A stretch of 64,000 nucleotides of DNA from Lacticaseibacillus absianus (GTDB taxonomy: Bacteria; Bacillota; Bacilli; Lactobacillales; Lactobacillaceae). Position 1 is the first letter of the stretch, and every line of letters begins with the position of its first letter. The stretch spans positions 1,010,522 to 1,074,521 of the forward strand of contig NZ_JABEKX010000001.1 in NCBI RefSeq assembly GCF_013407595.1, written 5' to 3'. Shown here in pieces: positions 17,279 through 41,972 of this stretch. The position numbers and the translations under genes were made by a program. Below the pieces are notes generated by a model. That model worked only from the letters and a program-made list of their open reading frames with translations. It had not been told where the DNA came from and searched no databases.

Positions 17279-17318
17279 GCGTGGGCCAAAACCTAGAGTA
17301 TCGGGTTTTGGCCCACGC
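17279..17318. repeat. Perfect 15-bp hairpin before the second GH92 gene
   Basis: GCGTGGGCCAAAACC and its exact complement enclose a 10-base loop (TAGAGTATCG). The stem lies 30 bases ahead of the GH92 start at 17348 and has no U-tract. It may act as a partial terminator or an mRNA processing barrier inside the operon. The loop region faintly resembles the ATACTCTGGG tail of the structured elements at 39061-39202 and 54847-54976. Confidence 0.6.
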
Positions 17319-17347
17319 TGCGTTTGACCAACAATACGAGGTAAATT

Positions 17348-19465: not shown

Positions 19466-19658
19466 GCGCTTCGATCGTGCGCGCGCAAGTGAGCGTTCGG
19501 TCAAGGTTGTGGGCGATCTGCGCGCCTGACTGAGATGCAGGGACGTGTGTTGGTGAGCCGACCTTGCACGAGGCGCGGTGTGGCACCAGCATGGGTCAGC
19601 ACCGATCGTCTATTTGGCGTAAGGCGGTCAAGCGTCGATATAGGGAGGCAGTAACGGT

Positions 19659-20246: not shown

Positions 20247-20275
20247 GCGTGGCGGATAAAAATGGAGGGATAAAA

Positions 20276-22264: not shown

Positions 22265-22267
22265 GGA

Positions 22268-23134
22268 ATGAATCCAATTATTGACGGCTACTATGCCGAT
22301 CCAGAAATCCGCAGATACGGCGACGACTATTGGCTCTTTGCGACCACATCGTGTGCGCGCGGGCAGCAAGTTCATTTTGACGCGTTTCACAGTCGAGACC
22401 TCCGACAGTGGGTCAAGGTCAGTCACGTTTTGGACATCAGTGACTTCAGCTGGGTCCACCGGGCACTGTGGGCGCCAAGCCAGTTTGAATGGCACGGGCG
22501 TTACTTCGTCGTGTTTGCTTGCAACGACATTCAGTCTGACCAAGAACAAGGTGGTCTCGGGCTGGCCGTTGCAGACCGACCGGAGGGGCCATATCACGAT
22601 TACCTTGGGCATCCGCTGATCGGCAACTTCATTAACGGGGCACAGCCCATCGACCCACACGTCTACGTTGAAAACGACCGCGTCTATCTCTACTACGGAG
22701 GTTGGCAACACTGTAACTTGGCCCAGTTCAACGATGACCTCACTGGGTTCGTGCCCATGGCAGACGGGTCGCTCTTCCGTGAGATCACGCCGGCGGGGTA
22801 TGTCGAAGCGCCGTGCATGATCCATAAGGATGGCACGTATTACTTCATGTGGTCTGAAGGTGTGTGGTCCGCCGCAGGCTACCAGGTGGTCTACGCGAAG
22901 GCGCACGCGCTTGAAGGGCCATTCGTCGCTCAGGCGGTGATCTTGAAAGGCGACGAGCGTGTCGCTGAAGCGCCGGGCCACCATTGCGTCGTTCAGGATC
23001 CGCAGTCCGGTGAGTGGCAGATCATCTACCACCGGCGACCGGTGGGTGAGACGGATTCGACCAAGCGGATCCTCTGCATGGATCGATTGAGATTTGACCA
23101 AGACGGGAACATATTGCCGGTCGTGATGAGCTGA
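22268..23134 (+). CDS. Glycoside hydrolase family 43-type enzyme
   Basis: A 288-residue five-bladed propeller enzyme. The family's three acidic residues appear as Asp11 in YYADPEI (base), Asp129 in PIDPHVY (pKa modulator) and Glu180 in YVEAPCM (acid). The length suits a GH43 without an accessory domain. GH43 enzymes cleave arabinofuranosides, xylosides or galactosides, so its presence suggests the imported glycan carries a pentose or galactose decoration. There is no signal peptide. It starts four bases after the DUF4965 gene with AGGAGGGATGAGGA before the ATG, so the two are translated together. Confidence 0.85.
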   Translation: MNPIIDGYYADPEIRRYGDDYWLFATTSCARGQQVHFDAFHSRDLRQWVKVSHVLDISDFSWVHRALWAPSQFEWHGRYFVVFACNDIQSDQEQGGLGLAVADRPEGPYHDYLGHPLIGNFINGAQPIDPHVYVENDRVYLYYGGWQHCNLAQFNDDLTGFVPMADGSLFREITPAGYVEAPCMIHKDGTYYFMWSEGVWSAAGYQVVYAKAHALEGPFVAQAVILKGDERVAEAPGHHCVVQDPQSGEWQIIYHRRPVGETDSTKRILCMDRLRFDQDGNILPVVMS

Positions 23135-27227: not shown

Positions 27228-28100
27228 TCAGTTGGGGGACTGGGTCACCTGTGCCTTGCGGTAGTTCAGTGGGGAGAGCCCCATGTGTTGTTTGAATTCG
27301 TGGTGGAAGGTCTTGACGCTCTGAAACCCGCAGGATTCAGCGATCTCCGGCATGGTCGCATCGCTGCCAACGAGGGTGAAGCTCGCCTTCATCAGCCGGT
27401 AGTCCAACAGAAAGTGGCCGAAGGTGCTGCCGGTGTTGCGCTTGAAGAAGCGAGCGAAGTACTGCGGGTTGAAATTCAGCAAGTCGGCGATATCCGTTAG
27501 CGTGATCGGTTGCCAGTAATGGGTATCGATGTAGTCGTAGACCATATTGAGCTGCGCCGTGATGGCCTCTGCCTGCAAGGTGGAGCGGTCCAGTTTTTCT
27601 AACGGTGGCCCGGCCATGTAGGGGAGCCGGTGGACGAAGCAATCGAGTAGCAGGTACAGATCACCAATCACGGTGGCACGCGCATTGGGCGCGTCGGCGG
27701 CCTTGAACAACCCCGCTAGGAGGCGGTGGACCTCTTTCGTCACGCTGCCGGGCCACGTGTGGCTCCATTGGGTGCGGTGCGCGAGAGCGGTGCTCATGGT
27801 GGTCAGACTGGTCTGCATCAGCTGAAAGTCGTAAAGCGATAGGTCGAACTGAAAGACCTTACGGATGCTGTTCGGCGTCGGTAAGAAGTAGTGCGGTTGA
27901 CCGCTGGGGAAAAAGAAAATGTCGCCGGCGTTCAGCGTGTAGGTCTGCCCCGCGACGCCGATGCGCGTTTGATTCGTCACGGCCTCGATGATCTCGATCG
28001 CGCGGTGTCGGTGCGGGTAGACGGGGCCACTCCCGTCGTTATAAAAGGCACGAAACGGGAGTCGCTCGGGCCATGTCGGCAATTCAATGTAAGGGGTCAT
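27228..28100 (-). CDS. AraC-family transcription regulator
   Basis: A 290-residue AraC regulator. The N-terminal cupin reads PHRHRAIEIIEAV and GDIFFFPSGQPHYF. The C-terminal double helix-turn-helix contains ITLTDIADLLNFNPQYFARFFKRNTGSTFGHFL-type spacing and IAESCGFQSVKTFHHEFK. The start at 28100 has TGGAGCG at six bases, and a longer reading lacks a ribosome site. It converges with the mannosidase operon and is divergent from the dehydrogenase/isomerase operon at 28228, so activation of the latter in response to a sugar is the likely role. Confidence 0.88.
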   Translation of the reverse strand: MTPYIELPTWPERLPFRAFYNDGSGPVYPHRHRAIEIIEAVTNQTRIGVAGQTYTLNAGDIFFFPSGQPHYFLPTPNSIRKVFQFDLSLYDFQLMQTSLTTMSTALAHRTQWSHTWPGSVTKEVHRLLAGLFKAADAPNARATVIGDLYLLLDCFVHRLPYMAGPPLEKLDRSTLQAEAITAQLNMVYDYIDTHYWQPITLTDIADLLNFNPQYFARFFKRNTGSTFGHFLLDYRLMKASFTLVGSDATMPEIAESCGFQSVKTFHHEFKQHMGLSPLNYRKAQVTQSPN

Positions 28101-28227
28101 ATGCGCTCCATAGTAGGTCAAGATACGGGACAATCAGGTCGCAAACTGGGGAAGAAAGGCGCTTCTCAGTTCATTATACTTAAGCCGTTCGAAAATGAAA
28201 GCGTGTACGAACATAGGAGGAGACTAA

Positions 28228-29313
28228 ATGACAATCAAGATCGGGATCATCGGTTGTGGTGGGATCGCCAACGGCAAGCATTTACCTGCGTTGAGCAAAC
28301 TAGCGGATGTCGCGTTAGTCGCGTTTTGTGACTTGATCCCCGAACGTGCCGAGACGGCCCGTGCACAATACGGGACCGCGGATGCGCACGTCTACACGGA
28401 TTACCGTGAGATGCTGCAGGAGCCGCTGGATGTTGTGCATGTGCTGACGCCTAACGCCGCGCATGCCCCGCTGACCATCGCGGCGCTTGAGGCTGGCTGC
28501 GATGTGATGTGTGAAAAACCGATGGCCAAAACGGCAGCGGAGGCAACCGCAATGCTCGAGGCCGCCAAGCGGACCGGTAAGCTGTTGACGATCGGTTACC
28601 AGAACCGCTTCCGGCGTGATTCGCAGTACTTGCATGCCGTCTGCGAGGAAGGCGCGCTCGGGGAGATCTACTTTGCCAAGGCGCACGCGATCCGCCGCCG
28701 TGCCGTGCCGACATGGGGCGTATTTCTCGACCAAGAAGCACAAGGCGGCGGCCCGCTGATCGACATCGGGACACATGCGTTGGATCTCACGTTGTGGATG
28801 ATGGACAACTACGAGCCCGCTTATGTCGTCGGTCAGACTTACCGGGCGCTGGGCGACAACCCGAATAGTGCAAACGCGTGGGGGCCGTGGGACCCGGCTA
28901 AGTTCACCGTGGAGGATTCGGCGTTTGGCTATGTGGTCATGAAGAATGGCGCTACGGTGTTCCTCGAATCCAGCTGGGCGCTAAACAGCTTGGACGTCAA
29001 GGAGGCCAAGACAACGCTGTGTGGTGCTAAAGGCGGTGCAGACATGGATCACGGGCTGACCCTCAACGGGGAAGATCACCAGACGCTGTGGCAAAAAGAA
29101 GTTGATCTGACCACTGGCGGAGTGGACTTCTTCGAAGGGGCGGGTGAGAATCCGGCCGATGTCGAAGCGCGTGCGTGGATCGATGCGGTCAAGACGCGGA
29201 CGCAGCCAGTGGTCCGACCTGAACAGGCGTTAGTGGTGACGAAGATCCTCGAGGCGATCTATCAGTCTGCTCGAGAACATCGTCCGGTCAACTTTGAGGA
29301 GGTCGCACAATGA
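28228..29313 (+). CDS. Gfo/Idh/MocA-family NAD(P)-dependent dehydrogenase 1
   Basis: A 361-residue oxidoreductase with an N-terminal Rossmann fold ([15 protein letters not shown]), the family signature [12 protein letters not shown] and the C-terminal alpha/beta domain ([19 protein letters not shown]) that holds the substrate and a catalytic His. The substrate class is free sugars, sugar derivatives or glycosides oxidised at C3 or another hydroxyl. It is the first gene of an eight-gene operon and AGGAGGAG precedes the ATG. It overlaps the ThuA gene by four bases. In the proposed pathway it would oxidise the glycoside to its 3-keto form, or act in the reverse step. Confidence 0.88.
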
Positions 29314-30035
29314 TCAACGTTACCGTATGGAATGAGTTCCGACACGAACAAAGTGAGCCAGCCGTTCAGGCCGTATACCCGAATGGGATCCACGCTCAAC
29401 TGGCCAGCTTCATCGAAGCGGGGGACGTCCACGTCCGCACGGCCACTTTAGATGAACCGGACAATGGGCTACCGCAAAGCGTGTTAGATGACACCGATGT
29501 CCTGCTGTGGTGGGGGCACGCTGCGCACAACGAGGTGGAAGACGCCACGGTGCAGCGGGTCTATGACCGGGTAATGGCGGGAATGGGGCTGATCGTTCTG
29601 CACTCGGGGCATTTTTCGAAGATCTTCCGTAAGCTGATGGGTACGACGTGTAACCTGAAGTGGCGTGAGGACGGGCACCACGCGCGTGTCTGGAACGTCA
29701 AGCCAAGCCACCCGATCGCGGCTGGGATCGGTGACCACATCGAACTGGCCCAAGAGGAGATGTACGGTGAGCAGTTCGATGTGACGACGCCGGATGACCT
29801 CATCTTTATCAGCTGGTTCCCCGGTGGTGAGGTCTTTCGCAGTGGCATGACTTACCACCGAGGCAACGGCAAGATCTTCTACTTCCAGCCGGGGCATGAG
29901 ACGTACCGCAGTTACTATAACCCGGATGTCCAGCGCGTGATCCAAAACGCGGTGCGTTGGTGTGCGCCGGATCACCCGCGGCCACGACTGTTCGATCATT
30001 TCGACGCGCTCGAGCCACTCGAGCCCAAGGCGTGA
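29310..30035 (+). CDS. ThuA-family protein
   Basis: A 241-residue protein of the ThuA (trehalose utilisation) class I glutamine amidotransferase-like fold. It has [30 protein letters not shown] and [21 protein letters not shown]. In rhizobia ThuA acts with the Gfo/Idh/MocA enzyme ThuB in handling 3-keto derivatives of trehalose and related disaccharides. Here it is likewise joined to such a dehydrogenase by an ATGA overlap, which supports a role in cleavage or isomerisation of a keto-glycoside. The mechanism is not settled. Confidence 0.85.
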
Positions 30036-30796
30036 TGACTATGACGTTGAAAGCAGGCTTACAGCTTTACAGTGTCGGTGAGGCCATGTACCAAGCGCCT
30101 CTAGAAACGATCGCGGCGGTCGGGCAGATGGGCTATCAAGGCGTCGAGTTCGCCGGCTACCATGGGCAATCCGCGCATGACCTAGCCCAGGCGGTGCGCG
30201 ATGCAGGTATGGTGACCTGCGGGAGTCACATCGGTCTGGATCAGCTGGTCAATGATCTGGCGGCGACCTTAGATTTCGAGGCCGCGTTGGGTAACCGACG
30301 CGTGATCGTGCCGGGGATACAGTGCGACACACCAGAGGCGTGGTACGCCAAAATGGCGACTCTTGACCAGCTGGCTGAAGCGTTGGCGGCGCGCGGGTTC
30401 CAGCTGATCTACCACAACCACGGCCATGAAGTCGCCACGTTTCCTGGGATCGACTTGCTCGACCAGATGACCAAGCGCACCCAGCACGTGCAGCTAGAAG
30501 TCGATACCTACTGGCTCGCATACGCCGGGATCGACGTGCTCGCATGGTTGACCGCTCACGCCGACCGGATCGCGATGTTGCACATCAAGGACATGGCGGT
30601 GACAGGAGACGAGAAGGAAAGTGTGATCCTTGAGACCGGGACCCTGCCGCTGACCGATTATCTCACCTTTGCGATGCACCACGGGGTGGACTGGTTGGTG
30701 GTCGAACAAGAGGCGTTCAGTCAGGCGGCGCCGGTGGCGGCAGCGCGGCAAAATGCGGTTGCCTTGAATCAACTCATTGGGAGGATCGAACAATGA
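30035..30796 (+). CDS. Sugar phosphate isomerase/epimerase-like TIM barrel 1
   Basis: A 253-residue AP-endonuclease-2 superfamily TIM barrel. It opens AGLQLYSVGEAM, then YQGVEFAGYHG, a metal ligand in YHNHGHEVATF, Glu in VQLEVDTYW, and His in MLHIKDM. These His/Glu/Asp positions bind a divalent metal in xylose-isomerase-like enzymes. The family covers isomerases, inosose dehydratase (IolE) and the lyases that eliminate the aglycone from 3-keto-glycosides. The start at 30035 overlaps the ThuA stop, and the next ATG at 30041 is also possible. Confidence 0.83.
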   Translation: MTMTLKAGLQLYSVGEAMYQAPLETIAAVGQMGYQGVEFAGYHGQSAHDLAQAVRDAGMVTCGSHIGLDQLVNDLAATLDFEAALGNRRVIVPGIQCDTPEAWYAKMATLDQLAEALAARGFQLIYHNHGHEVATFPGIDLLDQMTKRTQHVQLEVDTYWLAYAGIDVLAWLTAHADRIAMLHIKDMAVTGDEKESVILETGTLPLTDYLTFAMHHGVDWLVVEQEAFSQAAPVAAARQNAVALNQLIGRIEQ

Positions 30797-31773
30797 AACT
30801 TGGTGTTTTCACCCCAGTATTCAATGCGTTAAGTTTTGACCAAATGTTGGATAAGGCGCAAGCGCTCGGCCTGCAGACCCTGGAGATCGGGACTGGCGGG
30901 AATCCCGGGACCGCGCACCTCGACCCGGATGCTTTGCTGGCGAGCAGCGACAAGCGCCGGGAGTATCTGGCCAAGCTGGCGGCACATGGTCTGACGATCT
31001 CTGCCTTCAGCTGTCATAACAACCCGATCGCGCCGGTGGCCGCGGTGGCGCAGAAGGCCGACGAGACCCTGCGCAAAACGATTAAGCTGGCCGCGCTGAT
31101 GAACGTGCCGGTGGTCAACGAATTCTCGGGCGTTAGCGGGGGCAACGCGACCGATACGGCCTTGAACTGGCCGACGATCGCGTGGCCGACGGAGTATCGG
31201 GATAATTATCTCTTCCAGTGGGAGCGACGCTTGATCCCATACTGGCGCGACATCAACACGGTGGCGACCGCTGCTGGGGTCAAGATCGGGATTGAGCTGC
31301 ACGGCGGGTTCCTCTGTCACACACCGTACACGATGCTGAAGCTGCGCGATGCGGCGGGCCCGGCTATCGGCTGTAACCTTGATCCGAGTCACATGTGGTG
31401 GCAGGGGATCGACCCGGTCGCAGCGGTCAAGATCCTCGGTAAGGCCGGGGCACTCGTTCATTTTCACGCGAAAGACACCTACCTCGATCCGGATAACATC
31501 AACATGCACGGGCTGACAGATATCCAGCCGTATGAGGACCTGACCGACCGCGCCTGGATCTTCCGGACGGTGGGGTATGGTCACGACCAGAAGACTTGGT
31601 CAGATATCATCTCAGCGCTGCGGCTATACGGTTACGACTATGTCGTGTCCATCGAGCACGAAGACGCGCTGATGTCGGTCGATGAAGGGCTGCATCAGGC
31701 GGTCAAAAACCTAAAGGCGGTGATGATCTCGGAGAGCCCTGGCGCGGCGTGGTGGACAGGCGATACGATCTAG
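30793..31773 (+). CDS. Sugar phosphate isomerase/epimerase-like TIM barrel 2
   Basis: A 326-residue member of the same TIM-barrel superfamily, longer than its neighbour. Landmarks are LGLQTLEIGTGGNPG, FSCHNNPIAP, VKIGIELHGGF (Glu), CNLDPSHMWW (Asp/His) and LVHFHAKDTYLDP (His). These fit the metal site of IolE/IolI-like enzymes. It overlaps the preceding gene by four bases (ATGA), so the two barrels are translationally coupled. In the proposed pathway one barrel could be the lyase and the other the hydratase or an epimerase; which is which cannot be told here. Confidence 0.83.
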   Translation: MKLGVFTPVFNALSFDQMLDKAQALGLQTLEIGTGGNPGTAHLDPDALLASSDKRREYLAKLAAHGLTISAFSCHNNPIAPVAAVAQKADETLRKTIKLAALMNVPVVNEFSGVSGGNATDTALNWPTIAWPTEYRDNYLFQWERRLIPYWRDINTVATAAGVKIGIELHGGFLCHTPYTMLKLRDAAGPAIGCNLDPSHMWWQGIDPVAAVKILGKAGALVHFHAKDTYLDPDNINMHGLTDIQPYEDLTDRAWIFRTVGYGHDQKTWSDIISALRLYGYDYVVSIEHEDALMSVDEGLHQAVKNLKAVMISESPGAAWWTGDTI

Positions 31774-31782
31774 TCCGCAGAA

Positions 31783-31804
31783 CCGACCGGCTCGAGCCGG
31801 TCGG
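31783..31804. repeat. Perfect 22-bp palindrome inside the operon
   Basis: CCGACCGGCTCGAGCCGGTC plus GG is an exact palindrome lying in the 73-base gap between two operon genes. No U-tract follows. It may form an mRNA hairpin affecting stability or a binding site for a dimeric protein. Confidence 0.6.
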
Positions 31805-31846
31805 GACGTCTGCTGACATGGTCAAACAAGCATCTATTGGAGGGTA

Positions 31847-32899
31847 ATGATGAAAGAGTTAATGATGGGGATCGTTGGGTATGGTGGCATGGGGGCGTAC
31901 CATGCGCGTGAGTTGATCCCAGCTTCTGCCCATATTCGGCTGAAGGGCGCTTACGATATCGACCCGGAGCGGCGCAGTGTGATCGAAGCGGACGGGTTCA
32001 TCGCGTATCCGTCTTATGAAGCGATGTTGGCCGATCCGGAGATCGATCTGGTGCTGGTCGCGACACCGAATGATCGTCACCGGCCGTTGAGCCTGCAGGC
32101 GCTTGCGGCCCACAAGCATGTGATCAGTGAAAAACCAGCGATGATGAACCCGGCAGAGCTTGAAGAAGTGCTCACGGCAGCTGCCGCAGCTGATCGGCAG
32201 TTCTTCGTGCACCAGAACCGGCGCTGGGATCCGGATTTTCGCGTGCTGACCCAGATCGTTCAGGCGCAGACCATCGGCGATGTGTTCCGCGTGGAGTCGC
32301 GAGTACACGGTGCCAATGGCATCCCGGGGGATTGGCGGCATTTTGCCCGATACGGTGGCGGGATGATCCGCGACTGGGGGGTGCACCTGCTTGATCAGCT
32401 GCTGGACTTACTGGACGGGCCGATCAGCCGGGTGACTGCGGAAACCAGTCAGATCCTCGGTGATGATTGCGACGACGGGTTCACCGTCCGACTGGACTTT
32501 AACAGCGGGGTCACTGCCGTGGTGGAGGTCGGGACGACCAACTATATCCCGCTGCCGCGCTGGTATGTCAAAGGCACACAGGGGACTGCCGAGATCCGTG
32601 ACTGGGACTTACACGGTGAGCAGGTCATCGCGACGGGTGTTGATACTGTCGCCCCGACACCGGTGCGCGCCGGTGTCGGTCTGACCAAGACCATGGCTCC
32701 GCCGTCTGAAGCAGCGGTTCGCCACGCGTCGTTGCCGGCCGGGGTGCCGTTGTCGGTGAGCTTCTATGACAATGTGCATGACGTCATCTGCGATGGGGCC
32801 CCGCGTGTGGTCCAAAACAGCGAGGTCATGCGTGTCCTCAAGCTGATCGACGTGATCACTGCTTCGGCCGAGCAGCATCAGACGTTGCCATTCGAGTAA
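31847..32899 (+). CDS. Gfo/Idh/MocA-family dehydrogenase 2
   Basis: A 350-residue oxidoreductase beginning MMKELMMGIVGYGGMGAYH (Rossmann), with LVATPNDRHRPLSL, SEKPAMMNPAEL and the C-terminal block YGGGMIRDWGVHLLDQLLDLL. It follows TATTGGAGGG, with a 73-base gap to the previous gene that holds a palindrome. It differs clearly from the other three dehydrogenases of the operon, so it probably handles a different intermediate or direction of hydride transfer. Confidence 0.87.
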   Translation: MMKELMMGIVGYGGMGAYHARELIPASAHIRLKGAYDIDPERRSVIEADGFIAYPSYEAMLADPEIDLVLVATPNDRHRPLSLQALAAHKHVISEKPAMMNPAELEEVLTAAAAADRQFFVHQNRRWDPDFRVLTQIVQAQTIGDVFRVESRVHGANGIPGDWRHFARYGGGMIRDWGVHLLDQLLDLLDGPISRVTAETSQILGDDCDDGFTVRLDFNSGVTAVVEVGTTNYIPLPRWYVKGTQGTAEIRDWDLHGEQVIATGVDTVAPTPVRAGVGLTKTMAPPSEAAVRHASLPAGVPLSVSFYDNVHDVICDGAPRVVQNSEVMRVLKLIDVITASAEQHQTLPFE

Positions 32900-33048
32900 C
32901 GGGCGCAGTGCACGGCACGGTCACGCAGATTGCTTTGGCCAAGTGTGTCGCGGCGCGATGTGACGCGCCACCAGTTGAACTGTTGATGTCACGGTCGGCC
33001 GGGTAGGCAGGACCAGCATATGGATTATATCGAGAGGTAAAGTCAAGC

Positions 33049-33918
33049 ATGGCAGAGTTTGTGTTGTCGGCATTTGCCGACGAACTATCACCCGAACTAG
33101 AGACGCAGATCCAGGGGTTAGTCAATAACGGGATCCATCATATCGAAGTGCGCGGCGTTGACGGGATCAATGTCAGTGACCTGTCCCTCAGTCAGGCCCA
33201 GGCGGTCAAAGTGCGGCTAGACGCGGCGGGGATCCGGGTGTCCAGCATCGGGTCCCCGATCGGCAAGATCGGCGTGACGGATGATTTTGACGCCCACCTG
33301 ATCAAGTTCCAGCACACACTAGACGTTGCGCAAGTCATGGGGAGCCCGTATGTGCGGCTATTCAGCTTCTATCCGCCGAAGGGCATGCCGGCTGCACAAG
33401 CACGCCCCGTGGTGATCGCGCGGCTGCAACGGATGCTGGCGGTGGCCAAGGCCTATCCGAGCATCACGTTATTACATGAAAACGAAAAAGAGATCTATGG
33501 GGATACAGCCGAACGCTGTCTGGATCTGATGCAGACACTCGCCGATCCGCAGCTGCGGGTGGCTTTTGATCCCGCTAATTTTGTGCAGTGCGGTGTTGAC
33601 GTCTGGACGGCCTACGTGAAGCTAAAGCCATACATCGTCTACCTGCACGCCAAGGATGCCCTAGCGGACACCGGGACGGTGACTCCCGTTGGCCAAGGTG
33701 ACGGGGACGTCGCCAAGGTTTTGGCGGCACTGGCACAAGATGGATTCAATGGGTATCTGTCCATCGAACCCCACCTGAGTGCGTTTCCTGGCTTTCGTCA
33801 GCTTGAGCGTGACCCGCAGTCGACTAGTAAGACGCGGGACGATCAAGCGGTGTTATTCAACATTGCCGCTGACGCGTTGATCACAACGCTGAGGCAGATC
33901 GGAGCGAATTGGCGATGA
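33049..33918 (+). CDS. Sugar phosphate isomerase/epimerase-like TIM barrel 3
   Basis: A 289-residue TIM-barrel protein with SAFADELSPELETQI at the start, then HHIEVRGVDGINVSDL, LLHENEKEIYGDTAERC, FDPANFVQCG and YLHAKDAL. This pattern is shared with isomerases and 3-keto-glycoside lyases of the AP-endonuclease-2 family. It is preceded by a 149-base gap with no recognised structure and a modest ribosome site (GAGAGGTAA). It overlaps the next dehydrogenase gene by four bases. Confidence 0.83.
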   Translation: MAEFVLSAFADELSPELETQIQGLVNNGIHHIEVRGVDGINVSDLSLSQAQAVKVRLDAAGIRVSSIGSPIGKIGVTDDFDAHLIKFQHTLDVAQVMGSPYVRLFSFYPPKGMPAAQARPVVIARLQRMLAVAKAYPSITLLHENEKEIYGDTAERCLDLMQTLADPQLRVAFDPANFVQCGVDVWTAYVKLKPYIVYLHAKDALADTGTVTPVGQGDGDVAKVLAALAQDGFNGYLSIEPHLSAFPGFRQLERDPQSTSKTRDDQAVLFNIAADALITTLRQIGANWR

Positions 33919-35075
33919 CAGAGATCGTGAGGATCGGGATCATTGGCATTGGGAATATCGGCTCACGACACGCCGGCTACCTATCGCGCGGTGAGATCCA
34001 AGGCGCCCAGCTGGTCGCCGTCTGTGACATCGATCCGGCTAAGTTGAAAGACGCGGCGCGCTTCGGAACGTCGCTTCGGCAATACGCGACGGCAGCGGCG
34101 ATGCTGGCAGATCCGGGCGTTGATGCGGTGATCATCGCGACCCCGCACTACGCCCACCCGACGCTCGCTGCGGCGGCGTTGCGGGCGGGCAAGCACGTGC
34201 TGAGTGAAAAACCGGTGGGTGTCTACACCCAGGCGGTGCATGAGCCGCTTGAAGTCGCGGCGCAACACCCTGAGCTGACCTATGCACTGATGTACAACCA
34301 GCGAATGAACCCGATGTACCAAAAAGCCCGTGCGCTCGTTCAAGACGGGACGATCGGGGAACTACGGCGCTCGAATTGGATCATCACGGACTGGTACCGG
34401 TCGCAAAGTTATTACGATTCGGGTGGGTGGCGCGCGACCTGGGCCGGTGAAGGTGGTGGGGTCTTGCTCAACCAAGATCCGCACCAGCTGGACCTGTGGC
34501 AGTGGATCTGCGGGATGCCTGCGCGCGTCATGGGCTTCGCGTATTGTGGTAAGCGGCGTGACGTCGAGGTCGAGACAGAGGCGACTGCCTATGTCGAGTA
34601 CCCGAACGGGGCGACCGGCGTGTTCGTGACGACGACGACCGAGACGCCGGGGACGAATCGATTCGAGGTCGTGGGGTCCAAGGGTACGATGGTCATTGAG
34701 GATCAGCGGCTGCGGCTGCGCCTCAATCAAGTGGATGAGGCAACGTGGAACCGCACCTACACGGGCGGCTTCGGTCAGCCTGAGTCTCAAGAAGAACAAC
34801 TCGACGTCGTGTTCGATGCGGATTCTGGCCACGCCAAGATCGTGCAGAACTTTGTCGATCATATCCGCACAGGGGCGCCGTTGATGGCCCCCGCCAGTGA
34901 AGGGCTTCGGGGACTATCGATTTCCAATGCGATCTACCTCTCCGCGTGGACTGGCGCCTGGGTCCCGTTGCCGATCGACGAGGCGCGCTTCTTGGCCGCG
35001 TTGAATGAACGTCGCGCACAGTCCGTGTTCAAGCCGACGCCGGGGCGGCGCTTGGACACCAGGGGGTCATACTGA
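33915..35075 (+). CDS. Gfo/Idh/MocA-family dehydrogenase 3
   Basis: A 386-residue oxidoreductase: VRIGIIGIGNIGSRHAGYL, DAVIIATPHYAHPTLA, SEKPVGVYTQAV, then GEGGGVLLNQDPHQLDLWQWI. The Asp/His pair of the last motif is the usual catalytic region. ATG 33915 overlaps the stop of the TIM-barrel gene; a TTG six bases earlier is less likely. This subgroup resembles the longer inositol 2-dehydrogenase/glycoside dehydrogenase-like members. Its substrate is not known. Confidence 0.87.
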   Translation: MTEIVRIGIIGIGNIGSRHAGYLSRGEIQGAQLVAVCDIDPAKLKDAARFGTSLRQYATAAAMLADPGVDAVIIATPHYAHPTLAAAALRAGKHVLSEKPVGVYTQAVHEPLEVAAQHPELTYALMYNQRMNPMYQKARALVQDGTIGELRRSNWIITDWYRSQSYYDSGGWRATWAGEGGGVLLNQDPHQLDLWQWICGMPARVMGFAYCGKRRDVEVETEATAYVEYPNGATGVFVTTTTETPGTNRFEVVGSKGTMVIEDQRLRLRLNQVDEATWNRTYTGGFGQPESQEEQLDVVFDADSGHAKIVQNFVDHIRTGAPLMAPASEGLRGLSISNAIYLSAWTGAWVPLPIDEARFLAALNERRAQSVFKPTPGRRLDTRGSY

Positions 35076-36085
35076 TGACACTGAAGTTTGGGATCATCGG
35101 GTGCGGAGCGATCGCACATGCCCACCTCGCGGCGATCCGGGCGCTGCCTGACGCCGAGCTGGTCGCTTGTTGTGATATCGATGCACGCAAAGGCGCGGCG
35201 TTCGCAGCCGAAGCGGGTCAGGTGGCCTTTTTCACCGACTACCGTGCGCTCTTGGCGACACCGGTAGACGTGGTGACGATCGCCACCCCGCACGTATGGC
35301 ACGCCGAGATGACGATCGCGTCGCTTCAGTCGGGCAAGCATGTAATCTGTGAAAAACCGATGGCGCTCTCACCGCGTGAAGCGGCGGCGGTGGCCCAAGC
35401 GGCGACGGCGAGCCGCACACAATACGCCGTGTGCTTCCAAAACCGGTTCAACCCGACCTACGTTGCGGCGGCACACTTGCTACACAGTGGCGATCTAGGG
35501 CAGCTGCGCGGGGTCAAGGCAGAACTAACGTGGCGACGTGACGCGCAATACTATGCCGCGGCGGATTGGAAGGGGCGGTGGGCAACGGAAGGTGGCGGGG
35601 TGCTGGTCAACCAAGCAATCCACACGCTTGACGCCTTGTGCTGGCTTGCCGCGACCCCGACACGCGTGTGCGCGCGTATCATGACGAGCCGACTGTTGGG
35701 GGCGATCGAGGTCGAAGACGCGGCGATGGTGACTGCGGAGCTCCCCGGTCAAGTGCCCGCCGTGATCTTCGCCAGCAACAATTATTCGAGTGATCCAGCC
35801 CCCACGCTGACATTCGATTGCACGGGTGGTGTGTTGGCACTGTCGATGGACACCCTGCGCGTGAACGATCACGTCGTCGATCACCGCACACTAGGACCGA
35901 TCGATGGGGGCAAACCGGCGTGGGGCAGTGGTCACAGCCGGTTGTTCGCAGCGTTCGCACACCGCATCCAAGGGGGCACGGACCCACTTGACGGTCACCT
36001 CGTGGGGTGCGCTGCGCAAAACACGGTGGCCTTGCTGGCGGCGATCTACCGAAGCAGTGCCAGCGGTGACTGGGTGGCGGTCTGA
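35075..36085 (+). CDS. Gfo/Idh/MocA-family dehydrogenase 4
   Basis: A 336-residue oxidoreductase that closes the operon. It has LKFGIIGCGAIAHAHLAAI (Rossmann), VDVVTIATPHVWHAEM, CEKPMALSPREAA and TEGGGVLVNQAIHTLDALCWL. It overlaps dehydrogenase 3 by one base (TGATG). Two dehydrogenases at the 3' end paired with a TIM barrel, and two at the 5' half paired with ThuA and two barrels, suggest two related reaction modules in one transcript. A terminator-like hairpin follows at 36103. Confidence 0.87.
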   Translation: MTLKFGIIGCGAIAHAHLAAIRALPDAELVACCDIDARKGAAFAAEAGQVAFFTDYRALLATPVDVVTIATPHVWHAEMTIASLQSGKHVICEKPMALSPREAAAVAQAATASRTQYAVCFQNRFNPTYVAAAHLLHSGDLGQLRGVKAELTWRRDAQYYAAADWKGRWATEGGGVLVNQAIHTLDALCWLAATPTRVCARIMTSRLLGAIEVEDAAMVTAELPGQVPAVIFASNNYSSDPAPTLTFDCTGGVLALSMDTLRVNDHVVDHRTLGPIDGGKPAWGSGHSRLFAAFAHRIQGGTDPLDGHLVGCAAQNTVALLAAIYRSSASGDWVAV

Positions 36086-36207: not shown

Positions 36208-38016
36208 TCAGTCGCACGCTGGAAACTCTGCGATCCGCAGTTTGGCCCCTCCATAAGGCACTAGGCGAACTTCTGTCGCGCCGGTTAACTCGGGATGGAA
36301 GGGCGGCTCCTCGGCTGAATTATGGCGGCGCCCCCACCCCGTGACTTTTTGACCAGTGGTCGTCAGATAAATGGGGGATCGATCGGCGTCGAACGCCTGG
36401 CCACTTTCATAAGGGGTCTCGTGTCGCTGGTAAGCCGCGTGGCGACTGAGTGCGACTGCCCAATCGTCCGTAGACGTGACCGCCCAGTCTTGGAGCGGGG
36501 CGGTGCCGCCGAGCAGCGTCCAGTGTTCCGTCAATGGTGCGGCGAACAATAGTGGCCCGTAGTGTACGGCTAAGGCATGAGCGGGTCGGTCATCGAACCG
36601 GACATCGGTGACCAGTGTCAGGGTGATCACTTGATCGCCTGTGCACTCGAGTGTCAAGTAGTCCGCGGTCCGGGCCACCGGAGCCGCGTGCCCGTTGCAG
36701 GCAAGCGTGACTGATGACGCCCATTGCGGGATCCGGATCTGGAGTTGAATGGGATGGGTGGTCTGTACGCTGATCGTGTTGGTGAGGCCGAAGGGGTAGT
36801 TGCCGTCGACTTTGATCTGGACGTCCGGTGTCTCTAAGGTACAAGGAACGAGACTTTGGCAGACGTAGGCGTTCTCTGTTTGCATCCAGGCCGCGGCCAC
36901 GAACTTGGGCCAACCCTGATGCAAGTTGGCCGTGCAACAGCCGAAGTGAGGGGTCAGCCCGAACGTGTTCGCATCCGGACCGTTCTCCGTCCAGTCACGG
37001 GGAGCGACGGTGCAGCTGATTTGGTTGACTTGTTGGTCGTATTGATGTGACCTGAAATCCCGTGAGATCGACGCCGGTAATGCATTGAAGGCTGCTTCCT
37101 CCAAGAGGTCGCCGTAACGGGTGTCACCGGTGTAAGCCAAGCCGATTTCGGCCGAAAACATGAATTCGACAATGCCACATAGCTCGAGCCCCTGACTCGG
37201 TGAAGTGCCCGCTAGCCATTCGTCACCGGCTAGTAGCCCGTGTGCTTGTCCGTGGTACTGCCGTAGTTGCTGCCAGGCGGCGTGAAAGGCGGTCAGTTGC
37301 TTGGGGTCACCAGTCAGTCGATAATTGACGGCAAAGGCCTTGAGCCCCATCATCACGTTTACGATGTGGCTTTCAGGGTTGAACCGTGTGAGCGGGCGCG
37401 TGAAGGGCAGCGCCGCATAAAGTGCGCCCCAATCGGTGGACTGCGCGTAGAGCTGCTTCATCAACGGCGGAAGTGCGGCATCATGTGTGCGGTCGTATAA
37501 CCACAAATAGGGCACGATATTATCGCAACCACGCGGCACCGCCCAGTCGGAGAGGGGCCGATGATCCAGCTCCTGGGCCTGGTACCGCGCATACTTGAGC
37601 ATGAACGGGATCACGCGGGGATCACCCGTCGCTTCCTGGTATTGCGTGAGGCCCTTCAAGACGATCATCCTGCTCCACCAGTCGACGTTGCTGGTCGGGC
37701 CAAACCAGCCCGTCTCATCCTGACTGGCTAATATCCAGTCGATCCATTTTTGGGCCTTAGCGATCAGTGACGCGTCGTCAAGGGCGTAAGCGAGTGGAAT
37801 CAAGCCGTCTAGGTAGTAAGGGCCGCGCTCCCAGCCGTCGCCAGTTCCGCCTAACCAGCCGTTATTGGGGCCGACGTCTGGCCAGACCGCTTCTAGGTTG
37901 CCGGTCAATCCAGCCGCTTGTAGCATCAGTTCTTCCTTCAACCAGCCCATCGGTTTAATGGTCCCCAAAGGAAATGTGGTGAAATGCGCAGGGCGAATCG
38001 TCTGTTCTTGTCTCAT
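36208..38016 (-). CDS. GH127/DUF1680-type beta-L-arabinofuranosidase-like glycosidase
   Basis: A 602-residue alpha/alpha-barrel enzyme of the DUF1680 family. Visible parts are FPLGTIKPMGWLKEELMLQA at the start, WERGPYYLDGLIPLAY, the Glu/Cys cluster SQGLELCGIVEFMFSAE and FGCCTANLHQGWPKF. In characterised GH127 enzymes these segments supply the zinc ligands and a cysteine nucleophile. No signal peptide is present, so it is intracellular. The subgroup with CCTANLHQGWPK is not the HypBA1 type in detail, and its sugar specificity is uncertain. The start at 38016 follows GAGGAGG. It is divergent from an AraC regulator. Confidence 0.82.
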   Translation of the reverse strand: MRQEQTIRPAHFTTFPLGTIKPMGWLKEELMLQAAGLTGNLEAVWPDVGPNNGWLGGTGDGWERGPYYLDGLIPLAYALDDASLIAKAQKWIDWILASQDETGWFGPTSNVDWWSRMIVLKGLTQYQEATGDPRVIPFMLKYARYQAQELDHRPLSDWAVPRGCDNIVPYLWLYDRTHDAALPPLMKQLYAQSTDWGALYAALPFTRPLTRFNPESHIVNVMMGLKAFAVNYRLTGDPKQLTAFHAAWQQLRQYHGQAHGLLAGDEWLAGTSPSQGLELCGIVEFMFSAEIGLAYTGDTRYGDLLEEAAFNALPASISRDFRSHQYDQQVNQISCTVAPRDWTENGPDANTFGLTPHFGCCTANLHQGWPKFVAAAWMQTENAYVCQSLVPCTLETPDVQIKVDGNYPFGLTNTISVQTTHPIQLQIRIPQWASSVTLACNGHAAPVARTADYLTLECTGDQVITLTLVTDVRFDDRPAHALAVHYGPLLFAAPLTEHWTLLGGTAPLQDWAVTSTDDWAVALSRHAAYQRHETPYESGQAFDADRSPIYLTTTGQKVTGWGRRHNSAEEPPFHPELTGATEVRLVPYGGAKLRIAEFPACD

Positions 38017-38116
38017 CAAAAAAACGCCTCCTCTTTTCACCCCTTATTATTAAGCGCTTTCGCCGCACCATCAATGTTATAATTCAACTGAAGATTTGTC
38101 ATTTTAGGGACTGGAA

Positions 38117-38953
38117 GTGAGCCGTGTGCATTACTACCGATTCGCAACACCGCCGTATCCATACTATATTGAAGCAAGTGAGGCCACCTATGCCACTGGA
38201 CAGCGGCACATCGACCGCCAGTTCTTTGAGTTTTTTGATCTGATCTTTGTGACGAAGGGGTGCCTGTTCTTGACCGAAGAGTCGACCGCCTACACGCTGA
38301 CCGCGAACCATGGACTGATCCTCGCGCCGTACCTTCACCATTTTTCCCCGCGACCGGTCGCAACGGAAACGCACTTCTATTGGACACATTTTCTGTGCCC
38401 GACGCATTTTACGATCGCGCAATCGCCAAGTCGCTCGGCATTTGATCAAATCTCGCTGCCCAACACCTTCGTGGCGGCTGATCCGCAGGGGCTCATCTCG
38501 GACTTTGAATTTTTGTGCGCGACGGCGCAAGTGACGGGTGTCGATGAGGTCCTGGCGCGAGAACAGCACCTCTTGAATCTGTTCCGCGCCATTGCGCAGA
38601 CCGCCCAGATCGGCGTATCGGCAGCCGTCTCTGCGGTCGCTCGTCGCGCCGTCACGCTGATGACAGAGCGATACATGGCGCCGGAGTTCAATATTAATCG
38701 ACTTAAGGCCCAATTGAACTTTGACCCCACCTATGTGTCGAGGTGTGTCAAAAGCGTGTATGGGGTCACGGCTAAGCAATATCTGCTGGACCTGAGGCTC
38801 AACCAGGCGAAGTTGCTCCTCAGGTCGTCTAATTTACCGGTCGGTGTCATCGCTGAACGGGTGGGGTTTGGCGATCAAGCGCACTTCAGCAAGGTGTTTA
38901 AGCAACAGACCTTGACCACGCCGTCTGCGTTTCGCGATCAGTATCGGCGCTGA
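38117..38953 (+). CDS. AraC-family transcription regulator
   Basis: A 278-residue AraC regulator with an N-terminal cupin-like sensing domain (FDLIFVTKGCLFL, LILAPYLHHFSP) and a C-terminal double helix-turn-helix (INRLKAQLNFDPTYVSRCVK, then VGVIAERVGFGDQAHFSKVFK). It is divergent from the GH127-type gene; the 100-base gap contains AAGCGCTTTCGCC, a cre- or operator-like core. It is therefore the likely local regulator of that gene. The start is uncertain: GTG 38117 or GTG 38126. Confidence 0.87.
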   Translation: MSRVHYYRFATPPYPYYIEASEATYATGQRHIDRQFFEFFDLIFVTKGCLFLTEESTAYTLTANHGLILAPYLHHFSPRPVATETHFYWTHFLCPTHFTIAQSPSRSAFDQISLPNTFVAADPQGLISDFEFLCATAQVTGVDEVLAREQHLLNLFRAIAQTAQIGVSAAVSAVARRAVTLMTERYMAPEFNINRLKAQLNFDPTYVSRCVKSVYGVTAKQYLLDLRLNQAKLLLRSSNLPVGVIAERVGFGDQAHFSKVFKQQTLTTPSAFRDQYRR

Positions 38954-39060
38954 GCGGAGCAGCCGGTCGCGGTCTGGCAACGCCAGGGTCAAGGTCAGGG
39001 GACACGGCTGGCCGCGTCTGCGGGTGCGACGGCCATCATCGTGATCGGCGTCCGCCGACA

Positions 39061-39202
39061 AAAAAGTGGGGCTGTGCCATAACGCGGTTTTAGCCCAGAG
39101 TATAAGAGCGATCCCCTGAAAAACCCGAACTTAGGTTTTGCAGGGGATCGCTCTTATACGGCAAGGGCGTTGCGTTATGGCACGTAACGTTCTGGAATAG
39201 TC
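39061..39202 (-). ncRNA. Structured repeat element, copy A
   Basis: Read on the - strand this segment runs GACTATTCCAGAA, then a 12-bp outer stem (39172-39183 with 39074-39085), a 19-bp inner stem (39141-39159 with 39100-39118), an apical part containing CCTAAGTTCGGG, the tail ATACTCTGGGCTAAAACCGC, and finally CACTTTTTTG. Copy B at 54847-54976 keeps the loop, tail and 5' block but changes the stem bases while keeping pairing. It lies about 95 bases behind the third GH92 gene on the same strand. It may be an RNA structure, a terminator or a small mobile repeat. Confidence 0.6.
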
Positions 39203-39220
39203 GTGCCACCAGAGGTGATG

Positions 39221-41353
39221 TCACAACCCCACTTTGATCTCGGTCAAGTTAACCAAGCCTAACCGATCGTGGTGCTGGTCACCTGTCCGGCAACAGCTGC
39301 AGCCGCGCAGCCAGCGTACCGCCAGCGGCCAGGGCGGCGTGGGCGATCGTGGTGCCGGTCGGTTGGCCGTTGAACGTGCGGCGCCGACGAATTGCAGGTG
39401 GTCATGATTCTTGGCTGTTGTTAGCGTCAGCAGCCGGCCGTTCGGCAGGTGTAACGTGACTTGGTCGAAGAACGGGATCCCCAGCACGTACTCACCGCTG
39501 CCGGGGGTGACCGGGTAGAAGCCGAGGCTGGAGAACAGGTACCAGCTGCTCATCGAACCGTTGTCTTCGTCGCCGGGGTAGCCGGCGGGACCGGCGTTGA
39601 ACGCCGTCAGAAGCAGCTGCTTGACGGTCAACTCGGTGCCCGGCGCATCACCGGCCAGGGTGAACAGGTACGGCAGGTGGAAGCTCGGCTGGTTGGAGAT
39701 CGCCAGTTGGCCAAAATCCAGCGCCGCCAGCTCACGCATCTCGTGGATGGTCTGGCCGTAGCCCCCGACCTGATAGCTCGGGGCCTGGTTGACCAGGTGG
39801 TGTAGGTGCTTGATGAAGGCTGGTTTGCCACCGGTCAAGTCGATCAACCCCGGCCAGTCTTGATACACTGCAAAACTGTTCTGCCAGGCGCTGCCTTCCG
39901 TGAAGCCGTTGCCCCAAGTGGTCGGGTTAAAGTCCGGCGTGAACGCACCGTTGCGGTCCTTGGGGTGCATCAATTTGACGGCCGGGTCGAACAGGTGGCG
40001 GTAGTTCTGGCTACGCGCGGCGTATTTCGCTTGCAGTTCGGTTTCGCCCAGGTGGGCCGCGACGACGCTGATCAGCCAGTCGGAGTAGGCGTAATCGAGG
40101 GTCTTGTTGACAGACTCGCCGATGTCAGCAGGCACATAGCCGAGCGCCAGGTACTCGGCCAGACCTTCACGCCCGTACTTGGGGTCGTCGCTGATCGTCT
40201 CGGCGCCGTGAATCATCGCCGTCAGGAAGGCGGGCATCAGATCGTCGGCCAGGCCCTTGACCGCCGCGTCGGCGATCACTGCGTCGACCATCGTGCCCGG
40301 CATCATGCCGCGCTCGTCAGGCGCCAGCCACCGCGGCAGGAAGCCGGCTTCGTGGTAGCTGGTGAGGAAGCCTTCCAGCATGTCGTGGTAAGTGTCCGGC
40401 TGCATCAGGCTGAGGAACGGAAACAGCGTTTTGTACGTATCCCAAAAGCCATTGTTGGTGTACAGCTTCCCGGGCTTCACCGCGCGCGCCGTCGTGTCGT
40501 AGTGGACGGGTTGGCCGGTCGCGTCGAGTTCATAGAAGCGCATCGGAAACAGGAGCGCCCGGTACAGGTTGTGGTAAAACGTGGCCACGCGCGCCGCGTG
40601 GTGGTCTGTGACGGCGACACGGTCGAGCTGGGCCTGCCAGGCCGCAGCGTGCGCGGCCTGCATGGCGTCGAAGTCGGCCTCGCCCAGGGCAGCCAGGTTG
40701 CGTTCGGCCTGCTCAGCCCCGATGAATGAGGTGGCAAAGCGCACCGTGGCGGCCTGCGTATTCAACGGCCACTCGAGGTCGCCACTGGCCAGCGCCTGCG
40801 CGTCGCCTGTACCGGTCGGCAAGGCGAGCGCTAACCACATCGCAAAGTCTGGGTCTTCGCATTCGGCGAAGTTCTGGAGCCGCACGATGGCGGTCTGCCC
40901 GCGCGTGGCCTCAAGCGTCGTCCGCGGTGGGCAGACCAGCCGTAGTCGTAACGGCGCGGCAGCCGTGGATAACCGCAGAGCGCCGCCGTAGCGGCCGTTG
41001 GTGGCCTCGATCTGGATCTGCTGGGCCTCATCGTACAGGCGGATGAGGTCCGGGCGGAAGCTGGCTTCAGTGGGGCGGTACATGCTTTCAGCCTGCGCCG
41101 CCGTACCGACGGTCAGCGGCATGAACGCGGCGTGCTGGAAGTCGCCGATCCACGGGCTGGCCTGGTGCGTCAGCCGAATGCCGGCAAACGTTGGCTGCGC
41201 TGGATCGAACCACCAGGTCGTATCGGCCAACGTGGTCTGCACGCTGAGGTAGTTCATCCCGAACGGGACCCCTGTCAGCGGCAGGGTGTTGCCATGGGAG
41301 AAAGTGTAAGTGCTGGCGGTCCCAATCCGGGTATCGATCGATTGACTGTTCAT
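39221..41353 (-). CDS. Alpha-mannosidase, glycoside hydrolase family 92 (paralogue 3), C-terminal frameshift
   Basis: A third GH92: NSQSIDTRIGTASTYTFSHGN at the start, GFWDTYKTLFPFLSL, YAYSDWLISVV, FTEGSAWQ (acid), SNQPSFHLPYLF and YPGDEDNGSMSSWYLFSSLGF. All catalytic parts are intact and no signal peptide is seen. After HLQFVGA, near 39377-39386, the frame is lost. One base more would continue as TFNGQPTGTTIAHAALAAGG and stop at 39279, as homology with the other two GH92 proteins predicts; as read, the protein ends with an unrelated tail at 39221. The start at 41353 has AAGGAGGCACC. It is more distant from the other two GH92 genes than they are from each other. The frameshift may be a sequencing error in a GC-rich run or a real mutation. 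Confidence 0.85.
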   Translation of the reverse strand: MNSQSIDTRIGTASTYTFSHGNTLPLTGVPFGMNYLSVQTTLADTTWWFDPAQPTFAGIRLTHQASPWIGDFQHAAFMPLTVGTAAQAESMYRPTEASFRPDLIRLYDEAQQIQIEATNGRYGGALRLSTAAAPLRLRLVCPPRTTLEATRGQTAIVRLQNFAECEDPDFAMWLALALPTGTGDAQALASGDLEWPLNTQAATVRFATSFIGAEQAERNLAALGEADFDAMQAAHAAAWQAQLDRVAVTDHHAARVATFYHNLYRALLFPMRFYELDATGQPVHYDTTARAVKPGKLYTNNGFWDTYKTLFPFLSLMQPDTYHDMLEGFLTSYHEAGFLPRWLAPDERGMMPGTMVDAVIADAAVKGLADDLMPAFLTAMIHGAETISDDPKYGREGLAEYLALGYVPADIGESVNKTLDYAYSDWLISVVAAHLGETELQAKYAARSQNYRHLFDPAVKLMHPKDRNGAFTPDFNPTTWGNGFTEGSAWQNSFAVYQDWPGLIDLTGGKPAFIKHLHHLVNQAPSYQVGGYGQTIHEMRELAALDFGQLAISNQPSFHLPYLFTLAGDAPGTELTVKQLLLTAFNAGPAGYPGDEDNGSMSSWYLFSSLGFYPVTPGSGEYVLGIPFFDQVTLHLPNGRLLTLTTAKNHDHLQFVGAARSTANRPAPRSPTPPWPLAVRWLRGCSCCRTGDQHHDRLGLVNLTEIKVGL

Positions 41354-41393
41354 GTGAGGTGCCTCCTTGGAAGACAACAGCAGTGGGTCAAGC

Positions 41394-41972
41394 TCAGTGC
41401 CGGTCCAGGGCCTCTGCCTGCCGCAGCACCTTGGCCGGATTGCCGGCCACCAGCGTGTTGGCCGGGACGTCGTGGGTGACGACGCTACCAGCACCGATGA
41501 TCGCGTTATCACCGATGGTGACACCGGGCAGGATCAAGGCGTTGGTGCAGATCCAGACATTGTTGCCGATGGTGATCGGATGGGCGTACTCCAGGTTGGC
41601 GTTGCGCTCTGCGGCGTTTTGCGGGTGGGTCTCAGTGATCAAGGCGACGTTGGGGGCAATGAAAACATTGTTGCCGATGGTGATCTTGGCGCTGTCCATC
41701 AGCTTGCCGTTGATGTTCATGTAGAAGTTGTCGCCAACGGTCACGTTGTACCCATAGGTGCAAAACAGTGGCTGCTCGATCATCGGACTTTGGCCGACGC
41801 TGCCCAGCAAATCGCGCAAGGCGGCCTCGCGCTTGTCGCGCTCGAGCGGGTAGAGGTGGTTGTAATCGTAGACCTTCTTGATCGTGATGTCGCGGTCAGC
41901 GACGAGGTCTGGTGCGTATGGCTGATAGAGCAGGCCAGCCGCGCATTTTTCACGTTCGGATCGTGTGGTCAT
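41394..41972 (-). CDS. Maltose/galactoside O-acetyltransferase (LacA/Maa type)
   Basis: A 192-residue left-handed beta-helix acetyltransferase. An N-terminal Mac domain (SEREKCAAGLLYQPYAPDL) is followed by hexapeptide repeats (VTVGDNFYMNINGKL, ITIGNNVFIAPNVALI, ITIGNNVWICTNALI, VTIGDNAIIGAGSVVT). The usual catalytic His lies in ITETHPQ. It transfers acetyl from acetyl-CoA to the 6-hydroxyl of sugars, which is thought to detoxify non-metabolised sugars. It lies 40 bases upstream of the third GH92 gene on the same strand and probably leads that operon. The start at 41972 has AAGGAGGCCCC. A long leader with tandem hairpins precedes it. Confidence 0.9.
   Translation of the reverse strand: MTTRSEREKCAAGLLYQPYAPDLVADRDITIKKVYDYNHLYPLERDKREAALRDLLGSVGQSPMIEQPLFCTYGYNVTVGDNFYMNINGKLMDSAKITIGNNVFIAPNVALITETHPQNAAERNANLEYAHPITIGNNVWICTNALILPGVTIGDNAIIGAGSVVTHDVPANTLVAGNPAKVLRQAEALDRH

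Follow-up and report, generated by a model that had tools for sequence, protein, structure and literature searches.

How might a fermenting bacterium open glycosidic bonds with a set of genes that includes no glycosidase? The question is raised by an operon of eight genes, here numbered G1 to G8, at positions 28228-36085 of a 64,000-nucleotide stretch of DNA from Lacticaseibacillus absianus (contig NZ_JABEKX010000001.1; this whole stretch is hereafter the window). The window is part of a 2.84-Mb genome, and no glycosidase or transporter is encoded within the operon. An earlier sequence-only reading had placed this DNA in a lactobacillus and had seen in the operon a route by which a sugar is oxidized at C3, the aglycone is eliminated, water is added and the keto group is reduced. 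The closest named relatives at the locus are indeed Lacticaseibacillus, and homology together with synteny supports the proposed 3-keto route. We consider it probable that the first five genes and the adjoining AraC-family regulator constitute a redox-neutral, glycosidase-free pathway that dismantles O-glucosides (module A), with the last three genes forming a second cassette (module B).

Eight open reading frames (ORFs), all on the + strand, fill the operon in the ORF listing. Pfam recovered the content that had been described from the letters alone, with four Gfo/Idh/MocA dehydrogenases (G1, G5, G7 and G8), three AP_endonuc_2 TIM barrels (G3, G4 and G6) and one ThuA protein (G2), and all eight proteins exceeded the curated cut-offs of PF01408, PF01261 or PF06283. 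The genes start at 28228, 29310, 30035, 30793, 31847, 33049, 33909 and 35075. Their junctions, in order from G1 to G8, measure -4, -1, -4, +73, +149, -10 and -1 nucleotides, so that the tight overlaps noted earlier hold at five of the seven junctions and fail at the two wider ones. The +149 gap between G5 and G6 is the border between two cassettes that stand apart in other genomes. The arrangement goes beyond chance, since G1 to G5 recur together elsewhere.

G1 (28228-29313, + strand) is by homology a DgpA-type, NAD-dependent glycoside 3-dehydrogenase and the candidate for the first step. It matched DgpA1 (PDB 9m3d) at E 3.6e-133 and DgpA (PDB 7xr9) at E 5.3e-123, with the next match at E 5.5e-30. 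Homology was full-length, and identity over aligned segments was 61.4% to DgpA1 and 54.6% to DgpA. The GxGxx(G/A) motif, the EKP lysine and the (D/N)xxxH motif were found in all four dehydrogenases; G1 has the NAD site and the EKP and DxxxH motifs, and its K97 and H183 are near-invariant across 151 sequences. We take the EKP lysine and the DxxxH histidine to be the catalytic residues of the Gfo/Idh/MocA family. The DgpA of the gut bacterium Dorea oxidizes C- and O-glucosides at C3, the O-products then falling apart, and D3dgpA holds bound NAD(H) and was reported to follow a ping-pong mechanism in which 3-oxo-glucose is the acceptor (PMC11239390). G1 may also perform the last step by ping-pong with 3-keto-glucose. 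While G1 resembles DgpA and D3dgpA (7xr9, 9m3d) in its full-length sequence, its motifs and its association with a G5-like gene, it falls in a different clade, and its operon contains ThuA and no recognized DgpB/DgpC-type lyase.

Two of the TIM barrels are candidates for the second and third steps. G3 (30035-30796, + strand) is of the OGE type and a candidate 3-keto-O-glycoside beta-eliminase. It matched PDB 8bvk, which is AtOGE (PMC10628242), at E 3.6e-19 with 67 of 229 aligned residues identical. The metal and catalytic site of AtOGE comprises E39, H66, H132, H134, E161, D163, H189 and E233 (PMC10628242); by alignment mapping G3 is identical at all eight, and these residues are kept in 50 of 50 G3 sequences. 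AtOGE cleaves 3'-keto-cellobiose and not 3'-keto-maltose, and it leaves 3-keto C-glucosides uncut (PMC10628242). The sequence of G4 (30793-31773, + strand) retrieved a single match, the uncharacterized structure 2zds. Its AlphaFold model (pLDDT 89.5) again retrieved 2zds first in Foldseek, followed by 8ro4, titled '2-hydroxy-3-keto-glucal hydratase AtHYD' in the PDB (E 5.5e-16; TM 0.72-0.77; 19% identity). AtHYD is thus the best model match of known function, and G4 is a candidate AtHYD-like 2-hydroxy-3-keto-glucal hydratase. It is homologous to another family of these loci, S_TIM4 (hhalign probability 100, E 6e-43), and only a remote relative of CGE-alpha (probability 96.5). A Glu-x-His at residues 168-170 recalls the CGE motif (the E.HN pattern searched for was seen in 3 of 11 CGE sequences), and G4 was for that motif considered as an unpartnered alpha subunit of CGE. 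This was set aside as the less likely reading because CGE-alpha and S_TIM4 are different genes in C-glycoside clusters and because the G4 model matches AtHYD. The three TIM barrels had originally been taken for lyases; they appear instead as an eliminase-like (G3), a hydratase-like (G4) and, in G6, a 3-epimerase-like protein.

G5 (31847-32899, + strand) is a Gfo/Idh/MocA protein of the DgpA2 type and a candidate 3-keto-glucose reductase for the fourth step, or a second dehydrogenase. It matched the uncharacterized structure 3e18 at E 4e-118 and DgpA2 (9m37) at E 1.1e-52. In the predicted order of reactions, a glucoside would enter through an unlinked transporter, and G1 with its bound NAD would oxidize the sugar at C3, keeping the hydride or passing it on. 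The aglycone or second sugar would be beta-eliminated by G3, by ThuA (G2) or by both, G4 would add water to 2-hydroxy-3-keto-glucal, and 3-keto-glucose would be reduced to glucose with the NADH of the first step, either by G5 or in a ping-pong reaction of G1. The net result would equal hydrolysis. Such a pathway needs no outside oxidant and would therefore suit an organism that lives by fermentation. The same four steps are run by the A. tumefaciens and PUE operons (PMC10628242) and by the levoglucosan operon (PMC7676230). When compared to the Agrobacterium O-glycoside pathway as reported (GlycDH, AtOGE, AtHYD and a Gfo reductase; PMC10628242), the operon shares a G3 that keeps the AtOGE site, a G4 that is AtHYD-like by fold and a Gfo partner, whereas its first step is entrusted to an NAD-dependent Gfo enzyme instead of a flavoenzyme, ThuA is added, and G3 is optional among its relatives.

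The conservation of module A was traced in 71 fetched G1-clade loci of Lactobacillales, which were chosen from the 104 G1-type places known (window excluded) and which, coming from 20 genera, are not independent. G5 was present in all 71, G4 in 70, ThuA in 63 and G3 in 29. The sole locus without G4 (L018) is the second copy in the window's own genome, and it has the homologue S_TIM4, so that G4 or S_TIM4, plus G5, accompany G1 in every locus. In a wider sample, 80 named loci retained from 545 relatives, ThuA was found in 25, G3 in 33, G4 in 28, G5 in 18 and S_TIM4 in 16, and all of G1 to G5 together in seven. This co-occurrence defines G1 to G5 as a module that is most intact in lactic acid bacteria and varies more outside them. 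Of 395 Lactobacillales genomes, 105 have a G1 match at E <=1e-110, and four of the 105 carry the C-glycoside type only. The L018 cluster (G000:C1:308000-327000, at 7348-14513) reads AraC, a DgpA-type gene with 76% identity to G1, G3-like, G5-like and S_TIM4, followed by genes for IIB, IIC and IID of a mannose-family phosphotransferase system (PTS); given these neighbors, the pathway may also occur in a form fed by a PTS.

G2 (29310-30035, + strand) is the ThuA-like protein and a candidate metal-dependent cleavage enzyme. It scored 123.9 bits against PF06283 (gathering score 33.4) and matched the ThuA-like structure 1t0b at E 2.2e-101. Histidines H12, H28, H70, H73, H98, H101 and H196 were found in 90 of 90 ThuA sequences and H134 in 88 of 90, and the eight together look like a metal site. 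To our knowledge, the ThuA family (PF06283) has long been without a known reaction. Its distribution follows that of G1. Strong ThuA matches (E <1e-30; 95 genomes, 18 weaker ones being dropped from 113 at E 0.001) occurred in 92 of 101 Lactobacillales genomes with a G1-clade gene and in 3 of 294 without. Furthermore, of the 98 strong ThuA places, 93 have a G1-clade gene within 5 kb, and not one is close to the DgpA type that is linked to CGDB, the beta subunit required for C-glycoside cleavage. That ThuA tracks the G1 clade in Lactobacillales and is missing from ten C-glycoside clusters is new; one collection, of CC-licensed papers, yielded none joining ThuA with DgpA-type enzymes, which is no proof of absence. 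The resemblance to rhizobial ThuAB that had been proposed is borne out insofar as ThuA adjoins a Gfo dehydrogenase in rhizobial thuAB, in the ThuA/ThuB of Paenibacillus sp. JDR-2 and here (PMC4765114, PMC6683767). Those systems consist of two genes, and the excerpted texts mention no OGE or AtHYD-like partner.

The flanks of the loci suggest a division of labor. Genes of families GH13, GH65 or GH77 flank 14 of the 71 loci, from five genera, and every one of the 14 carries ThuA and lacks G3, a second pattern that is new. G3 occurs in 29 of the 57 loci outside this alpha context (Fisher p 4e-4, in a test that ignores kinship within a phylogenetically clustered sample). Conversely, GH1, GH2 or GH3 genes flank nine loci, seven of which have G3 (p 0.027). 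These glycosidases were found with a set of seed sequences chosen for this analysis, which misses other families, and a check of GH13 density covered 20 hand-picked genomes. Four alpha-context genomes searched whole held no G3 homologue (control 8/8). Within genus g21, G3 was present in 0 of 6 alpha-context loci and 4 of 7 others (p 0.07), and within g10 in 0 of 1 and 1 of 1. Six G3-less copies of module A (L135, L137, L138, L189, L193 and L196) lie within maltose/maltodextrin clusters that hold GH65 or GH77, GH13, and PTS or MalE-like genes. The idea that the operon handles bonds that glycosidases cannot cut gained no support; related loci often adjoin ordinary alpha- or beta-glycosidase genes.

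In Paenibacillus sp. JDR-2, the ThuA/ThuB pair lies beside a maltose-induced ABC transporter and is up about 8-fold on maltose, and the authors proposed 3-keto-maltose (PMC4765114). The alpha-context pattern, the beta preference of AtOGE and this induction make ThuA the best candidate for alpha-glucoside cleavage, and they suggest a split in which 3-keto-alpha-glucosides are cut by ThuA and their beta counterparts by G3. A fuller proposal, which we advance tentatively and regard as possible rather than probable, is that ThuA is a metal-dependent 3-keto-alpha-glucoside lyase, the alpha counterpart of OGE and the standing alternative of Lactobacillales to alpha-glucosidases, with OGE added for beta-glucosides. 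Against it stand six of the 71 loci that have neither G3 nor ThuA, in genomes that lack both elsewhere, the frequency of ThuA outside alpha contexts (49 of 57 loci) and the kinship within the sample. The window genome holds both ThuA and an OGE-type G3.

The division of the operon into two modules, as had been surmised, is clear from other genomes. Module B begins with G6 (33049-33918, + strand), a TIM barrel with a 3-epimerase-like fold. Sequence matches of G6 were weak; the best Foldseek matches of its AlphaFold model (pLDDT 85.3) include D-psicose/D-tagatose 3-epimerases and Art22. As inferred from motifs, G6 has Glu instead of His at the position of the OGE catalytic histidine. Its model places it nearest to sugar 3-epimerases, and we are unsure of its role. 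G7 (33909-35075, + strand) is a Gfo/Idh/MocA dehydrogenase similar over nearly its full length to the P2B11 glucuronide-3-dehydrogenase (PDB 8tdi, E 3.9e-98); here it is paired with G6 and G8. G8 (35075-36085, + strand) is a Gfo/Idh/MocA oxidoreductase (PDB 3q2k, E 1.9e-32; DgpA 7xr9, E 4.4e-31). Relatives of G6 occur in 9 of 295 Lactobacillales genomes, the window genome counted. Apart from the window there are thus eight such loci; G7 comes after G6 in seven, with G8 recognized next in five, and the eighth stops at a contig edge on that side. Neither G6 nor G7 was found in the 71 fetched loci. Module B is accordingly a separate cassette, and the two modules were seen side by side only in the window, where they would share one transcript. 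Binding-protein-like and two permease-like genes lie upstream of G6 in L124, L125 and L126 (Pfam support was obtained for the binding proteins of L124 and L125 and for one L124 permease), a GH2 gene lies downstream of module B in L124, and GtaA and GH92 adjoin it in L121 as they occur in the window. Module B is probably a cassette for another glycoside, for example a glucuronide, that was joined downstream in this genome.

Several rival explanations keep the gene families and change the substrate. That the operon applies the same chemistry to other glycosides or ethers, such as glucuronides, N- or S-glycosides or phospho-glucosides, is unlikely. The closeness of G7 to a glucuronide-3-dehydrogenase, the GH2 gene after module B in L124 and the second G1 copy in L018, whose mannose-family PTS would deliver a phosphorylated sugar, speak for it, but D3dgpA showed no reaction with galactoside, rhamnoside or glucuronide substrates in the report as excerpted (PMC11239390), and within the window no PTS is linked to module A.

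Very unlikely is a DgpABC/CGD system that cuts the C-C bonds of flavonoid C-glucosides, as the resemblance to C-glycoside deglycosylation first suggested. G1 does match DgpA1 and DgpA, G5 matches DgpA2, and D3dgpA oxidizes puerarin (PMC11239390). The CGDB subunit is nevertheless required for C-glycoside cleavage, because PuCGE without it loses activity on 3-keto-C-glucosides (PMC10628242), and Pfam found no CGDB in the window genome even at E 10, with 7 of 295 Lactobacillales genomes positive. It was absent from the 80 named loci and, by tblastn (10 of 12 seeds in the right frame), from the 71 Lactobacillales loci, and no CGE-alpha was recognized among the eight genes, which were not run against a CGE-alpha profile. 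All 11 DgpA homologues with 55-62% identity to G1 lie near CGDB, as opposed to 0 of 102 G1-type places (at least 63% identity; CGDB sites known for 295 of 395 genomes). A 120-row tree places G1 in a clade of 104 rows (SH-aLRT 99) that holds no CGDB-linked row and neither solved DgpA. The rows linked to CGDB form a group with DgpA1 (99), and the tree, made with a quick method without bootstrap and with very long outgroup branches, gives no firm place for DgpA 7xr9. AtOGE, furthermore, does not cut 3-keto C-glucosides (PMC10628242). The C-glycoside system was consequently rejected.

Comparison of the two cluster types also bears on the preferred O-glucoside pathway. Ten C-glycoside clusters contained DgpA, CGE-alpha, a G5-like gene and CGDB in all ten and an S_TIM4-like gene in nine; the CGDB of one (L224) was missed by the ORF picker and placed by profile search. 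ThuA, G3 and G4 were found in none of them. G1, G5 and G4/S_TIM4, being common to both types, should perform the shared steps of oxidation, reduction and hydration. What is exchanged is the bond cutter, which is CGE in one type and G3 and/or ThuA in the other. The structural match of G4 to a hydratase is independent of this subtraction. A C-glycoside cluster with two S_TIM4 genes and a GH65 gene was observed in one genome (L133, G056:C20:90000-109000) whose module A lies apart from it, on a different contig.

A pathway for levoglucosan or another anhydrosugar is highly improbable. The levoglucosan set (LgdA, B1, B2 and C) has the same four-step logic of oxidation, elimination, hydration and reduction and the same gene classes, with two dehydrogenases and two further enzymes, but ThuA is not in its four-gene set as reported (PMC7676230), and the window proteins score 63.6-86.3 bits against the LgdA model NF052479, far below its cut-off of 650. 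Inositol or rhizopine catabolism, by IolG/IolE/MocA-like enzymes acting on free inositols, shares the superfamilies and weak model matches and can be dismissed as scarcely credible, with IolG scores of 98.4, 114.9, 126.3 and 115.7 bits for the four dehydrogenases against an equivalog cut-off of 355, an IolE score of 56.6 bits for G3 against 290, and nearest solved relatives that are glycoside dehydrogenases and an eliminase. Clustering with inositol or rhizopine enzymes, which the earlier reading had named as its own refutation, was thus not seen. The glycoside 3-dehydrogenases BT_2158 and BT_2159 of Bacteroides belong to the same superfamily, and we assume that they share the pathway logic; their NCBIfam families were likewise rejected, at 32.5-53.7 bits against 750 and 29.2-43 against 650.

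A number of observations weigh against the O-glucoside pathway itself. No activity is known for any of the eight proteins. No conserved transporter is linked to module A, the closest ABC genes of the window (5470-7269) lying 20 kb off. The top structural match of G4 is the uncharacterized 2zds, and epimerases follow AtHYD at E ~1e-12. G5 is perhaps a dehydrogenase and not a reductase, because the PDB title of its DgpA2 relative names a complex with the C-glycoside isoorientin. G3 is absent from 42 of the 71 loci and ThuA from eight. Neither is indispensable, since six minimal loci (L130, L163, L174, L182, L217 and L220) have only G1, G4 and G5, and their genomes yielded no G3 homologue genome-wide (control 8/8) and no strong ThuA match. 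One of these six genomes (G223) carries a C-glycoside cluster.

The regulator R (27228-28133, - strand; HTH_18 and AraC_binding in Pfam) is an AraC-family protein encoded divergently upstream of the operon, which it would control. In 51 of the 71 loci, G1 has such an AraC gene no more than 7 kb away. Between R and G1, a promoter-like block (28149-28181, + strand) combines a palindromic element, GGGAA-GAAAG-CGCTTC, with a downstream ATTATA that resembles a -10 element. We call the palindrome cre-like on what we take to be the cre consensus. Alignment of the intergenic regions of six Lacticaseibacillus sequences shows the block to be conserved, the window copy carrying one extra G, and it would fit carbon-catabolite control. 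A promoter scan of the window gave nothing above chance, and the block was not among its listed candidates.

The mannoside setting described for the operon is real, with GH38 at 10152 and GH92 at 14986, 17348 and 39221. The stretches 10152-23131 and 36208-41524 are rich in glycoside hydrolases (GH38, the three GH92, GtaA, GH43 and a GH127-like protein) and also hold GDSL esterases and a DUF4185 protein. An IS-type integrase-core (rve) gene at 4442-5341 immediately precedes the ABC permease genes, in an area of reduced G+C content (0.478 at 4001-8000). Plasmid copies were not found by megablast, the only search made for them.

Overall, the conservation of module A would extend the oxidative, glycosidase-free cleavage of sugars to a cassette that is common among lactic acid bacteria and their kin, and it separates that cassette from the C-glycoside systems. 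ThuA, a widespread family of unknown reaction, gains a sharp and cheap test in the comparison of alpha- and beta-linked 3-keto-glucosides. The pathway would matter for annotation, because such genes are at present labeled inositol dehydrogenases or sugar isomerases, and it would bear on how food bacteria set plant aglycones free.

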